From contig NZ_SSMQ01000063.1 in the NCBI RefSeq assembly GCF_005144585.1, positions 1 through 64,000 on the forward strand: DNA of 64,000 nucleotides, written 5' to 3'. The notes below the pieces were generated by a model that saw nothing but the letters and a program-made list of their open reading frames with translations, did not search any database and had not been told where the DNA came from. The position numbers were made by a program, and so were the translations under genes. This document shows, piece by piece, positions 1 to 12,193 of this stretch (position 1 is its first letter; each line of letters begins with the position of its first letter). The DNA comes from Polyangium fumosum (GTDB lineage: Bacteria; Myxococcota_A; Polyangia; Polyangiales; Polyangiaceae).

Positions 1-294
1 CTCAAGCACCTCGCGCGCACCCAACCGGACCTGCCAGCGACCGCAGAACTCGCGACACACGAGGTCGAGGCCTTGGTGCTGCTCAAGCGGAAACGAAAGA
101 AGAAGAACGAGCAGATCCCCGATGGGATCCCGCCGCTCGCGCTCGCCGTGCAGTGGATCGCCGAGCTCGGCGGCTACACAGGCAAGTCTTCGGGAGGTCC
201 CCCCGGCTCCGTCACCATCAGTCGCGGCCTGGAACGCCTAGCTCCCGCAGCAGAGATGCTGCGCGTCCTCAGGGAGAATGGGCTCGTAAGATGA
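1..294 (+). CDS. IS4-family (Tn5-like) transposase, C-terminal fragment
   Basis: The reading frame is open from the first base of the window and ends at TGA 292-294, giving about 97 residues of the C-terminus. The stretch WIAELGGYTG followed by a Gly/Pro turn and SRGLERL matches the end of IS4/IS50-type DDE transposases (typically WIAxLGGF...LWRGLxRL). A basic run KRKRKKK precedes it. The catalytic DDE residues lie outside the window, so intactness cannot be judged. A dispersed palindromic repeat begins 13 bases after the stop, but no clear terminal inverted repeat of an insertion sequence could be assigned. The family call is fairly secure; activity is unknown. Confidence 0.7.
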   Translation, partial: LKHLARTQPDLPATAELATHEVEALVLLKRKRKKKNEQIPDGIPPLALAVQWIAELGGYTGKSSGGPPGSVTISRGLERLAPAAEMLRVLRENGLVR

Positions 295-8812: not shown

Positions 8813-9646
8813 GTGACGCCTCTGCCCCCCATCGCCACCAAGCACCTCTTCCGTGACGTCTCCGCGGCCCTGCACGAGCTGCTCGGCTCGCTCGGCCCAG
8901 ACGACTGGAGCAAGCCGACGGTGCACGCGACGCGGGACGTGAAGGACCTGGCGGCGCACCTGCTCGACGGCTCGTTCCGGCGGCTCTCGTTCCAGCGGGA
9001 TGGGCAGTTCATCCCGGCGCCCGAGATCCGCTCGTTCGAGGCGATGGTCGAGTTCATCCAGCGCCTCAACACCGAGTGGATGCTGGCCGCGCGGAGGCTT
9101 TCGCCGCGCGTGCTCATGGATCTCCTCCGCCGCGCCGACGAGGAGGTCGCCGTGCTCTTCGACGGGCTCGATCCGGAGGGACCGGCGATCTTCAGCGTGG
9201 CGTGGGCGGGCGAGGAGTGGTCGCAGAACTGGTTCGACGTGGCGCGCGAGTACACGGAGAAGTGGCACCACCAGCAGCAGATCCGCGACGCCGTGGGCCG
9301 GCCGGGCCTGAAGGAGCGGCGCTACATGCACCCGGTGATCGACGCCTTCCTGCGAGGCGCCCCGCACGCCTATCGCAATGTCCCGGCCGCGGACGGCGCA
9401 GGGGTCGATCTCGTGATCACGGGCGAGGCGGGCGGGACGTGGCACCTCGCGCGCGCGGCGGATCGGTGGGAGCTCGTGGCCGCACGGGAGACGCCTGCGC
9501 AAACGACGGTGGAGCTCGACGCGGACAGCGCATGGCGGCTCTGGACGAAGGGTCTCGACCCGGAGAAGGCACGCGCGCAAGCCATGGTGCACGGGGACGA
9601 GGCGCTCGCGGCGCCGATCTTCCGGATGGTCACGATCATGGCCTAG
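8813..9646 (+). CDS. Maleylpyruvate isomerase-family (DinB-like) protein
   Basis: A 277-residue cytosolic protein starting at GTG 8813, the only sensible start after the upstream stop. The N-terminal 160 residues have the pattern of the DinB/YfiT-like helical bundle of mycothiol-dependent maleylpyruvate isomerases: DWSKPT-x-VKDLAAHLLDG early, and a late EYTEKWHHQQQIRDAVG helix carrying putative metal-ligand histidines. The C-terminal part includes ITGEAGGTWHL and TTVELDADSAWRLWTKG, similar to the SCP2-like C-terminal module of this family. Myxobacteria are not known for mycothiol, so the thiol cofactor and reaction are open. No operon partner is obvious. Confidence 0.75.
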   Translation: MTPLPPIATKHLFRDVSAALHELLGSLGPDDWSKPTVHATRDVKDLAAHLLDGSFRRLSFQRDGQFIPAPEIRSFEAMVEFIQRLNTEWMLAARRLSPRVLMDLLRRADEEVAVLFDGLDPEGPAIFSVAWAGEEWSQNWFDVAREYTEKWHHQQQIRDAVGRPGLKERRYMHPVIDAFLRGAPHAYRNVPAADGAGVDLVITGEAGGTWHLARAADRWELVAARETPAQTTVELDADSAWRLWTKGLDPEKARAQAMVHGDEALAAPIFRMVTIMA

Positions 9647-9683
9647 CGTGCATCTGAAGCACACTCGTAGTAAGGCCTCGGCC

Positions 9684-10451
9684 ATGCACGTCGCGATCAC
9701 GGGTGCGTCCGTTGGCATCGGGGAGGCCTTGGCGCGCGCGTTCGCCGCGAAGGGCGCGGTCGTCTCGCTCGTCGCTCGGCGCAAGGAGCGGCTCGACGCC
9801 ATCGCACGGGAGCTCTCGGGCCGGGCCTTCCTCCACCAGGCCGACCTCTCGCGCCCAGAGTGCGCGACCGACTGGATCGCGCCCGCCGAGAAGGAGCTCG
9901 GTCCCATCGACGTGCTCGTGAACAACGCGGGCGTGCAGAACGTCGAGCCGACCGAGCTCGCCGGGGTCGACGCGGGCGAGATGCTCCTGCGCTTGAACGT
10001 GCTCACGCCGCTGCGCCTCACGCGCGCCGTGCTGCCGGGCATGCTCGCGCGGCGCAGCGGCGCGATCGTCGACATCGCCTCCATGGCGGCGATCACGCCC
10101 ATGCCGGGCATGTATTATTACAATGCCTCCAAGGGCGCGCTGGCGAATGCCTCGGAGGGCCTGCGGGGCGAGCTGCGCGGCACGGGCGTGCACGTGGTCA
10201 CGGTGTATCCGGGCCCGGTCGACACGGACATGGGGCGCAAGGGCTACGAGAAGTACGAGCCCTCGCTCACAGCGCGGTTGTCACCGGTAGGCACAGCGGA
10301 CGGGCTCGCGCGGCTCGTGGTGCGCGCCGTCGAGCGGAAGAAGGCGCGCGTCGTGTACCCGCGTTCGTATGGCGTGGCGCTCTGGTTCCCGCGGATCGCG
10401 CGCTGGGTGACGTCGCGGTTCTCGCCGCCGATCAAGCGGCTCTCGGCTTAG
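9684..10451 (+). CDS. Short-chain dehydrogenase/reductase (SDR)
   Basis: A 255-residue classical SDR. The NAD(P)-binding motif TGASVGIG stands at residues 6-13, NNAG follows near residue 80, and the catalytic YxxxK is seen as YNASK around residue 147 with a preceding Ser. A basic residue pair after strand 2 (VARRKER) favours NADPH. ATG 9684 is chosen because it places the Rossmann strand at the N-terminus; an in-frame ATG at 9648 would add 12 residues. A hydrophobic/aromatic C-terminus (about WFPRIARWVTS) may touch the membrane. Substrate unknown. Confidence 0.88.
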   Translation: MHVAITGASVGIGEALARAFAAKGAVVSLVARRKERLDAIARELSGRAFLHQADLSRPECATDWIAPAEKELGPIDVLVNNAGVQNVEPTELAGVDAGEMLLRLNVLTPLRLTRAVLPGMLARRSGAIVDIASMAAITPMPGMYYYNASKGALANASEGLRGELRGTGVHVVTVYPGPVDTDMGRKGYEKYEPSLTARLSPVGTADGLARLVVRAVERKKARVVYPRSYGVALWFPRIARWVTSRFSPPIKRLSA

Positions 10452-10545
10452 CAGCTGGGGCCGCCGCTGCGCCGGGGCGCTGCCCCGGACCCCGCGGGGG
10501 CTGTCCGCCCCTCGACCCGGACCAGGCACGGCCTGGACCGAAGGT

Positions 10546-10574
10546 GGAAGAACTGCGCGGTGCGCAGTTCTTCC
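10546..10574. repeat. Hairpin with 13-base perfect stem
   Basis: GGAAGAACTGCGC pairs with GCGCAGTTCTTCC around a GGT loop. It shares its core with the hairpin at 10698-10724 inside the same composite element. Confidence 0.8.
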
Positions 10575-10697
10575 AACGGGCCGGTGGCAAGACCATGGAG
10601 GTGGGTTTCAAGCCGGCGACGCGTACGCTGCCGGTTGAACCAGCAGCGCCGCGGCCTTCGTGGGCAGGCCCGTCGCAGGTCTTGACCCTGGCCGTTC

Positions 10698-10724
10698 GAT
10701 GAACTGCGCATCGCGCAGTTCATC
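10698..10724. repeat. Hairpin with 12-base perfect stem
   Basis: GATGAACTGCGC pairs with GCGCAGTTCATC around an ATC loop. It is the partner of the hairpin at 10546-10574, about 125 bases away. Confidence 0.8.
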
Positions 10725-10811
10725 GTCCTGGGTCCAGCGCCTCGCTGGTCCGGGTCCAGGGGTGGACAACCCCTGGTCGGGGCCCGGGGTGAAACCCCGG
10801 CGCGGCGCACC

Positions 10812-11030
10812 CTAGAAAAACCCGCCTTCGAGCATCGAGGCGAGCAGCTCCTCGTCCTCGGGGGATTTGTCGGTGCGGGCCTCGGTCGTGGAGGGGTCCT
10901 TCGACGGGGGCGTGTCCGCGGGGGGAGCGGGCGGGGGCTCCCGGAAGTTTGGGCAGCCCCGCGTCGCGCACTCCACCGTCAAGACCCCCACGTAGGTCGC
11001 TCGCGCGCCGCAGCGGGGGCAGACGGTCAT
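10812..11030 (-). CDS. Small zinc-ribbon protein
   Basis: A 72-residue protein with an N-terminal zinc-ribbon-like motif: CPRCG at residues 4-8, then Cys21 and Cys26. A proline-rich linker and an acidic C-terminus (SPEDEELLASMLEGGFF) follow. Its ATG overlaps the stop of the acyl-CoA dehydrogenase gene by four bases (ATGA), so the two are almost certainly one transcription unit and translationally coupled. The protein is too small for an enzyme; a role as a partner or regulator of the dehydrogenase is inference only. Confidence 0.7.
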   Translation of the reverse strand: MTVCPRCGARATYVGVLTVECATRGCPNFREPPPAPPADTPPSKDPSTTEARTDKSPEDEELLASMLEGGFF

Positions 11031-12193
11031 CCCTTCACCTCGTACTCGCTCTGCAGGAGCTTTGCGATCGTGGCGAGTTGCATGTTCGACGTGCCTTCGT
11101 AGATCTTCCCGATCTTCGCGTCGCGGAAGAACTTCTCGGCGGGGTACTCCTTCGTAAAGCCCACGCCGCCGAAGAACTCCACGCAGAGGGATGCCGTCCG
11201 CTCGGCGACCTCGGACGAGAACAGCTTTGCCATCGCGGCTTCCTTCAGGAAGGGCAGACCGGCGTCCTTGCGGCGCGCGGCGTTGTAGACCATCAGCCGC
11301 GCGGCTTCGATCTCCGTCGCGACGCGGGCGTACTGGAACTGCATCCCTTGGAAGCTTGCGATCGACTGACCGAACTGCTTGCGCTCGATCATGTACCGCA
11401 TCGCTTGGTCGAACGCGCCTTGCGCGAGGCCGATCATCTGCGCGCCGATGCCGATGCGCCCTTCGTTCAGCGTCTCGATCGCGATCTTGTAGCCCTTGCC
11501 GACCTCGCCGAGCACGTTCTCTGCGGGCACCTCGCAGTCTTCGAGGACGAGCTCGCACGTGCTCGATGCGCGGATGCCGAGCTTGTTTTCCTTCTTGCCC
11601 ACGGAGAAGCCCGGGAAGCTTCGCTCCACGAGGAAGGCCGTGATGCCGCGGTAGCCCTTGCTCGGGTCCACGTTTGCGAGGACCAGGAAGAGCGAGCTCT
11701 CGTTTGCGTTCGTGATCCAGAGCTTGCGACCGTTCAGCACCCAGCGCCCGTCCTTCTGCGTCGCGCGGGCTTGGAGAGCGAACGCGTCGGAGCCGCTGCC
11801 GGCTTCGCTCAGCGCGTACGAGCCCACCCAGTCTTTGCAGAGGCGGGGCAGGTACTTCTCCTTCTGCGCGTCGTTCGACCAGCGCAGGAGCGCGTTTGCG
11901 ACGAGCGTGTTTTGCACGTCCACGAGCACGCTCACGCTCGGGTCGACGACGGCGAGCGCCTCGACGGCGAGGATTGCGTTGAAGAAGCTCGACCCGGCGC
12001 CGCCGTAGGTCTCGGGGATCTCGACGCCCATGAGGCCGAGTTCGAAGAGGGACGGCAGGAGCGCGGGATCGAGCGCGCCTTTCTCGTCCATCTCGCTGAC
12101 GAGCGGCGCGACGCGCTTCTTCGCGAAATCGAGCACTGAGTCGCGGAAGAGCGTCTCTTCCTCGGACAGGTGGGTGAGGGGGGGATGCGACAC
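11027..12193 (-). CDS. Acyl-CoA dehydrogenase
   Basis: A 388-residue flavoenzyme of the short/branched-chain acyl-CoA dehydrogenase type, catalysing alpha,beta-dehydrogenation of acyl-CoA with FAD. All three domains are present. The FAD/substrate signature YALSEAGSGSDA lies in the beta domain, the ERKQFGQSIASFQ helix is in the C-terminal domain, and the catalytic Glu lies in IYEGTSNMQL near residue 367. The GTG start at 12193 has GGAG 8-9 bases upstream (AAGGAGATCACACGTG); an upstream ATG frame would add 44 non-conserved residues. It is followed without a gap by the zinc-ribbon gene. It probably acts in branched-chain amino acid or fatty acid oxidation. Confidence 0.92.
   Translation of the reverse strand: MSHPPLTHLSEEETLFRDSVLDFAKKRVAPLVSEMDEKGALDPALLPSLFELGLMGVEIPETYGGAGSSFFNAILAVEALAVVDPSVSVLVDVQNTLVANALLRWSNDAQKEKYLPRLCKDWVGSYALSEAGSGSDAFALQARATQKDGRWVLNGRKLWITNANESSLFLVLANVDPSKGYRGITAFLVERSFPGFSVGKKENKLGIRASSTCELVLEDCEVPAENVLGEVGKGYKIAIETLNEGRIGIGAQMIGLAQGAFDQAMRYMIERKQFGQSIASFQGMQFQYARVATEIEAARLMVYNAARRKDAGLPFLKEAAMAKLFSSEVAERTASLCVEFFGGVGFTKEYPAEKFFRDAKIGKIYEGTSNMQLATIAKLLQSEYEVKG

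Follow-up and report, generated by a model that had tools for sequence, protein, structure and literature searches.

ERIC and other long intergenic palindromes are dispersed, imperfect and more than 100 bp in length, as is the palindromic element of Polyangium described here. REPs, REP dimers and BIMEs, as presented in the accessible part of PMC3733652, are high-copy palindromes that lie in convergent gaps less than 20 bp from the 3′ ends of open reading frames, prefer heterodimers and serve as targets of insertion sequences (ISs), all of which holds for the Polyangium element as well. Prokaryotic MITEs, according to the accessible part of a review (PMC10969869), are short, non-coding and intergenic, carry terminal inverted repeats and target duplications, and have a likely mobilizing IS in the same genome; the review also mentions nested palindromic elements in pneumococcus (BOX/RUP/SPRITE), and in each of these respects the Polyangium element is alike. 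With the Tn5/IS50 group of the IS4 family (NF033590, PF02281; PDB entries 1mus and 1muh) the Polyangium system shares the transposase family, the 9-bp target duplication and palindromic, G/C-bounded targets (PMC1525189, accessible part). The same part of that source describes ISRm22 of Sinorhizobium meliloti, an IS4-family IS that similarly targets REP-like palindromes and whose nine copies lie in REPs. In a REP survey (PMC12306157) none of the terms 'Myxococc', 'Polyangi' or 'Sorangium' occurs in the main text; that of the MITE review does not contain 'IS4' and, in the accessible part, names Tn5 only as the full transposon or in a reference. No description of such a repeat in Polyangium or other myxobacteria, or of such a Tn5-type MITE, was among the matches listed from the open-access literature, which is a weak negative.

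The window analysed here is a 64 000-nucleotide stretch of the genome of Polyangium fumosum (G000). A nested palindrome of 330 bases without coding sequence had been predicted at positions 10472–10802, and it proved to be real, imperfect and non-coding, with no gene found there by our home-made gene caller. The predicted mirror symmetry was recovered as three nested inverted-repeat pairs, the outermost at 10465–10494/10778–10807 (77% identity), the middle one at 10497–10539/10731–10773 (81%) and the innermost at 10542–10584/10687–10729 (81%), together with a perfect hairpin at 10545–10575. The flanking genes converge, ending at 10451 (+ strand) and 10812 (− strand), and the palindrome fills the gap between them. 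Folded as RNA, 10472–10802 reaches −242.4 kcal/mol compared with −166.7 ± 6.3 kcal/mol for 100 dinucleotide shuffles, none of which folds as well (z = −12.1). Homology from copy to copy shifts both edges outward by about 7 bases, to 10465–10809. This segment (+ strand) belongs to the long-core subfamily and in an nhmmer search covers positions 4–348 of 351 in a profile built from 36 copies (E 1.3e-107). It has no recognizable transposon ends, the best match to the 18-bp end described below being 10/18 on either side.

Each arm of the element is a row of four local hairpins (H1–H4), giving eight hairpins per full copy. In the left arm of the window copy these are H1 (CCGGGG..CCCCGG) at 10472–10488, H2 at 10496–10512, H3 (CCAGGC-ACG-GCCTGG) at 10522–10536 and H4, of the GGAAGAACTGCGC type with a perfect 14-bp stem, at 10545–10575; in the arm alignment 99.4, 99.5, 99.8 and 96.8% of their cells, respectively, are paired. 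H3 is the kind of hairpin into which the Tn5-like IS inserts, as read from the IS junctions. The core of 121 bases (10576–10696, + strand; alignment of cores from 29 copies) separates H4 from H4′ of the right arm, which is of the CGATGAACTGCGC type and was located at 10697–10725 by the arm alignment, and H3′ (10734–10748), H2′ (10758–10774) and H1′ (10784–10800) follow from the arm alignment and pair counts. Core length in the 29 copies is 92–93 bases in 11 and 116–122 bases in 16, with single cores of 103 and 140 bases, and the core sequence differs between subfamilies. The two arms of a copy are not identical: 27 of 32 copies pair one CGATG-type H4 with another type, and the non-CGATG types are GGAAG in 15 copies and TGAAA in 11; of the remaining copies two have CGAGG there and three have an H4 that the pattern does not recognize. 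Within a copy the arm-to-arm identity (0.774) is lower than that of re-paired arms (0.800), a value as low being reached in 14 of 5000 re-pairings. A giant single hairpin or cruciform, which we considered as the selected fold, is not favoured in view of this low arm identity and of the pairing of the local stems. In several arrays a further small palindrome, the repeat GGGGCGTAGCTCGGCTTGCCGAGCGTAGCCCC, is nested within the H2 region (G000 C22:95970–96112 and its counterparts in G001 and G004). There are also longer composite arrays, in which two half elements surround several hundred bases of other DNA (G000 C22:137401–138395, C44:72035–72817, L313, L343 and L344), some of them with Tn5-like ends.

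A genome-wide search revealed many copies, so that the element is far from unique. With the element as query 79 matches were obtained on both strands of its own genome (40 of 373 candidates being scored), and the 12.98-Mb genome contains the pattern GAACTGCGC-N3-GCGCAGTTC 248 times, with none for the reversed control pattern. The profile finds 41 arrays in an 861.5-kb sample of G000, corresponding to 1.18% of the sampled DNA; these are not all independent, as some gaps hold two. By extrapolation from this sample the genome may hold roughly 600 related arrays. The element is present in all six Polyangium genomes searched (G000 and five of the same genus), and of 33 other relatives from the same family or order two yielded a single weak match apiece (E about 1e-4). 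Among named organisms, Polyangium sp. 6x1, 15x6 and y55x31 have the closest counterparts of a window gene, with protein identities of 90–93%.

The start of the window links the element to an IS. Positions 1–294 (+ strand) encode the C-terminal end of a Tn5-like (IS4 family) transposase that is cut by the contig start and matches PF02281 at the cut-off; a full-length relative of 481 amino acids in the sister species G004 scores 254.8 bits with NF033590 (cut-off 160), matches PF02281 and PF14706 and finds the Tn5 transposase structures in the PDB with an E value of 4.6e-36. The right terminal inverted repeat of the IS is an exact CTGAGCAYKGGTCTCATC at 290–307 (− strand). It is followed at 308–316 by GGCCGTGCC, a 9-bp sequence that is duplicated around an IS copy in G004, where locus L177 shows the same junction sequence and a perfect 9-bp duplication. 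Since the IS end runs straight into GGCCGTGCC and the rest of an arm, positions 308–374 (− strand; nhmmer cluster 302–374, E 3.2e-12) are half a copy, comprising a fragment of H3, H2 and H1. The outer arm thus recurs beside a transposase fragment, as had been claimed for 308–372, but as the right half of an IS-split copy and not as a separate type of element. Five intact IS copies of 1503–1504 bp have the ends CTGAGCAYTGGTCTCATC and CTGAGCATTGGTTCCATC, the IS of G002 having the CTGAGCAYTGGTCTCATC form at both ends; IS ends deviate from the CTGAGCAYKGGTCTCATC pattern by 0–2 bases, and the duplications at the five copies agree at 9/9 positions in three, 8/9 in one and 4/9 in one. Among IS copies with a readable junction in G000, G002 and G004, 16 of 18 lie inside palindromic arrays, which make up 1.18% of the sampled DNA; this count leaves out six of 24 loci without a pattern-fitting end and three of 14 G000 matches that returned no locus, and one of the two junctions at L174 has no profile match. 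Within the arrays the insertion point, judged by eye, is mostly in H3. The transposase tail has 14 matches in G000, every one of them at the end of a contig, indicating that the draft assembly breaks at this IS.

The same ends also enclose palindromes. CTGAGCAYKGGTCTCATC occurs 64 times in G000 with at most one mismatch (reversed control, none), and 14 of the 64 read CTGAGCACTGG, the form of one IS end, which equals the number of transposase-tail matches in that genome. In 13 units of G000 the palindrome profile lies between two inward-facing ends, each agreeing at 14–18 of 18 positions and, in nine units, at 17 or more on both sides. Twelve of these units come from 40 end-flanking stretches (37 from G000 and three from G004), all 12 being in G000, and the thirteenth is C167:143799; L323, in which 287 bases separate the second end from the palindrome, was excluded, and units of G004 stand outside the 13. 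Target-site duplications, which had been proposed as a check on mobility and were scored as the best of three offsets, are perfect (9/9) in six of the 13 units, 8/9 in two, and 6/9 or worse in five. In the clearest unit, C167:143799–144190, a full palindrome stands between perfect IS-like ends, and the 9-bp duplication is perfect as well. Twelve of the 13 units measure 350–392 bp and one is a composite of 885 bp; two of the three G004 stretches gave composites with duplications, one of 1011 bp (L343; 9/9) and one of 1033 bp (4/9). The interiors of four two-ended units are 82–84% identical to the window element, and by eye no likeness between the interiors of these units and of the IS was noticed beyond the ends. 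None of the 41 sampled arrays overlaps a called gene by more than 40 bases, the element being short and devoid of a transposase.

Most copies, that of the window included, have no recognizable ends (13 two-ended units against some 600 estimated arrays), but degraded relics are enriched at their edges: at 115 copy ends, including the two perfect ends of C167:143799, 12.2% score at least 16, compared with 0.9–3.5% in three controls (p 6e-4 to 8e-6). These values are from a repeat with full-length copies only; a first, ungapped scan gave a weaker excess, to which similar-looking H4 stems in half elements contributed. Direct repeats were also sought at the borders of the conserved inner palindrome, with a negative result (5.34 versus 5.21 ± 0.12); the true edge is a few bases plus 18 beyond these borders. 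When the targets were rejoined, four of 14 were centred on a stem of at least seven pairs, compared with 1.8–2.4% of random sites; the four are the targets of three palindrome units and of a 252-bp unit, and the other ten have stems of at most five pairs. The 252-bp unit (G000 C167:180898–181149) has Tn5-like ends, a different interior without the palindrome and a perfect 9-bp duplication, and sits in H3 of a palindromic array.

From these sequence comparisons the element is, with good probability, a non-autonomous mini-transposon (MITE) of a Polyangium Tn5/IS4-type IS, and the original suggestion of a non-autonomous mobile element is supported by the copies bounded by Tn5-like terminal repeats and 9-bp duplications. 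A unit of about 350–392 bp would consist of the 18-bp inverted end CTGAGCAYKGGTCTCATC, a few bases, H1–H2–H3–H4, the core, H4′–H3′–H2′–H1′ and the other end, and would be moved in trans by the transposase of the 1.5-kb IS with duplication of 9 bp of target. Both IS and MITE would tend to land in GC-rich hairpins, a preference for which there is strong evidence in the case of the IS and weaker evidence in that of the MITE. After insertion the ends would decay in most copies, as in that of the window, and the local hairpins would stay paired.

The position of the arrays relative to genes was counted with the home-made caller, which uses codon log-odds, so that the counts are approximate. Twenty-five of the 41 arrays lie between convergent genes, compared with 12.6% of element-free intergenic bases (p 4e-13), and at least one array is present in 22 of 113 convergent gaps. 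A stop codon is within 25 nt of 33 of the 41, four adjoin no gene 3′ end, and the 12 between co-oriented genes cluster at the upstream stop (Kolmogorov–Smirnov p 4e-6). Element-free convergent gaps are themselves rich in hairpins, with 59% of 22 having a fold z below −2 compared with 14% among 170 gaps between co-oriented genes and 11% among 44 between divergent genes (gaps of 25–160 nt). At three sites (C22:147267, C22:137401–138395 and C44:67087) sister species, inspected by eye, have unrelated short hairpins in the same gap. A short hairpin, CCCTCTCCC..GGGAGAGGG, recurs in convergent gaps of G000, G001 and G004 (e.g. C22:51315) and is itself a target of mini-transposons (L306 and L332). The 16 end-bearing copies, some of them one-ended, lie in seven convergent, six co-oriented, one divergent and two unclear gaps, and ten of them are at most 25 nt from a gene 3′ end, which points to targeting rather than to later selection alone. 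GC-rich hairpins of this kind occur both next to gene 3′ ends and within older copies, a distribution that would explain the convergent-gap position as well as the nested arrays. The position fits a terminator, but no U-tract follows the hairpins in the sequences read by eye; the hairpins probably act as, or replace, two-way hairpins that end transcription or protect 3′ ends.

A REP/BIME-type repeat that spread by other means (a transposase since lost, or gene conversion), was kept for a function at 3′ ends and is occasionally carried off between the ends of an IS that lands in it, is possible but clearly the less likely history. Its location and heterodimer habit are those of published REP dimers (PMC3733652, accessible part), the IS4-family ISRm22 is reported to insert in REPs in the part of PMC1525189 cited above, and the lack of ends in most copies, with hairpins still paired where the ends are gone, is as it would predict. 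The end relics at copy edges speak against it, and 13 two-ended units with several end/interior junctions and different targets are many for chance capture. The REP/BIME likeness noted in the original prediction extends to gene 3′ ends, convergent gaps and use as an IS target and stops at the RAYT gene and the constant GTAG/CGTC tag. RAYT (NF047646) exceeds the cut-off in none of the six Polyangium genomes, with weaker matches in three, and a RAYT-driven REP was rejected as the present-day mover on that ground; before H1, CGTC is found in 11 of 67 arms and GTAG in none. The table of PMC3733652, as far as accessible, lists CGTC REP families without associated transposase genes, so that the missing RAYT does not exclude the CGTC subgroup. 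G000 has a single IS200-type Y1 transposase gene (L088, C165:65272–65628), and its contig also carries outer-arm matches at distances of about 3 and 8 kb from it; there is no sign that this gene moves the element. We therefore class the element as a MITE variant that behaves as REPs do, the family as a whole showing the marks of a MITE and lacking the RAYT and tag of a REP.

Comparison with G004 shows that individual sites differ in occupancy, orientation or subfamily. Of the 41 G000 arrays 25 could be placed in G004, where 15 sites are occupied and ten unoccupied, and of 23 G004 arrays 16 could be placed in G000, where one site is empty. At the empty G004 sites the flanking repeats, judged by eye, are short and variable (about 3–5 bases, e.g. 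CTGAG and GAGA) or absent; they may be scars of deletions rather than duplications made by the element. In G004 just 17 bases are found at the empty window site, which is occupied in the more distant 15x6 and y55x31, so that G004 may have lost its copy; one gene upstream of this site, G004 and 6x1 carry a copy that is missing in G000. The subfamily differs at four of 11 full-length orthologous pairs in a core alignment read by eye, in which the C22:211527 pair is less cleanly aligned, and one of the 11 pairs, at C22:52932, is inverted (core identity 0.93 inverted versus 0.74 direct). An invertible or exchangeable site-specific element, with a core that is flipped or swapped as a regulatory switch, could be read from this inversion, from the subfamily changes and from the window-site copies of 15x6 and y55x31, which also match better inverted (0.87 versus 0.79). 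We regard it as very improbable: a single inverted pair among 11 could stem from recombination or template switching between inverted arms, and at C22:107499 the outer junctions have changed too, which is more like replacement.

The pairing of the stems is conserved across copies, so that the refuting case named with the original prediction, a unique element without conserved pairing, does not apply. Among 67 aligned, hand-picked arms, pairing holds in 98.7% of cells. Changes on both sides are seen in 137 cells compared with 40.6 in shuffles, and in nine pairs compared with 6.0. Further pair types number 13, below the shuffle mean of 15.1, all 500 shuffles being at least as high. Sliding the stem partners out of register reduces pairing to 32–51%. 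The 67 arms were taken from 76, nine having been omitted by hand without a fixed rule; restoring them gives 98.6% of cells paired, with 97.9% for the nine alone. Such covariation could also arise at the DNA level, through mutation or conversion. A structured RNA, raised in the original prediction and here taken as a family of regulatory or small RNAs, is favoured by the covarying stems, the strong fold and a place just after stop codons at which it would probably be transcribed. It is nevertheless very improbable, since the core differs between subfamilies, the spread is explicable by transposon ends and no Rfam family matches above its cut-off (in a scan of window positions 9500–11500 the best matches reach 22.9 and 18.7 bits compared with gathering scores of 90 and 55). 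Palindromes arising by chance, or an error in assembling a GC-rich genome (69% GC in the sample, with contig ends falling in IS copies) can be dismissed given the fold z of −12, the many copies, their presence in six genomes and above all copies at the same sites in other genomes, including the 13.2-Mb contig of G004.

Returning to the mini-transposon, the loss of ends in most copies alongside kept hairpins counts against that model. More tentatively, and with less than even confidence, we suggest that a hairpin-targeting transposase has made gene ends into exchangeable slots: native terminator hairpins would draw in the IS and its MITE, and the MITE, with tandem hairpins of its own, would assume the two-way terminator role and become a target itself, to be inverted, exchanged or lost at a later time. 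On this view transposition would renew the transcription terminators of a whole genus. One genus here joins MITEs, REP-like gene-end palindromes and hairpin-targeting insertion sequences, which are usually handled separately, in a system with ends still intact, target duplications, insertions within insertions, and orthologous sites that are empty or swapped. It provides a concrete case for how REP-like repeats without a RAYT spread and for terminator turnover by transposition.

Set against the known systems, the Polyangium element is about 345 bp long with four hairpins per arm, whereas REP units measure 20–40 bp (accessible part of PMC3733652), and it lacks both the RAYT and the constant GTAG/CGTC tag and has Tn5-type ends in some copies. 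It differs from MITEs in its interior, where two unlike arms together carry eight covarying hairpins in mirror order, in the loss of ends and retention of the interior in most copies, and in targets that include hairpins at gene 3′ ends. Unlike members of the Tn5/IS50 group the palindrome carries no transposase, and as far as noticed the ends alone are common to IS and MITE. In the ISRm22 system the targeted palindromes are REP-like; some copies of the palindrome targeted in Polyangium have IS-like ends of their own.
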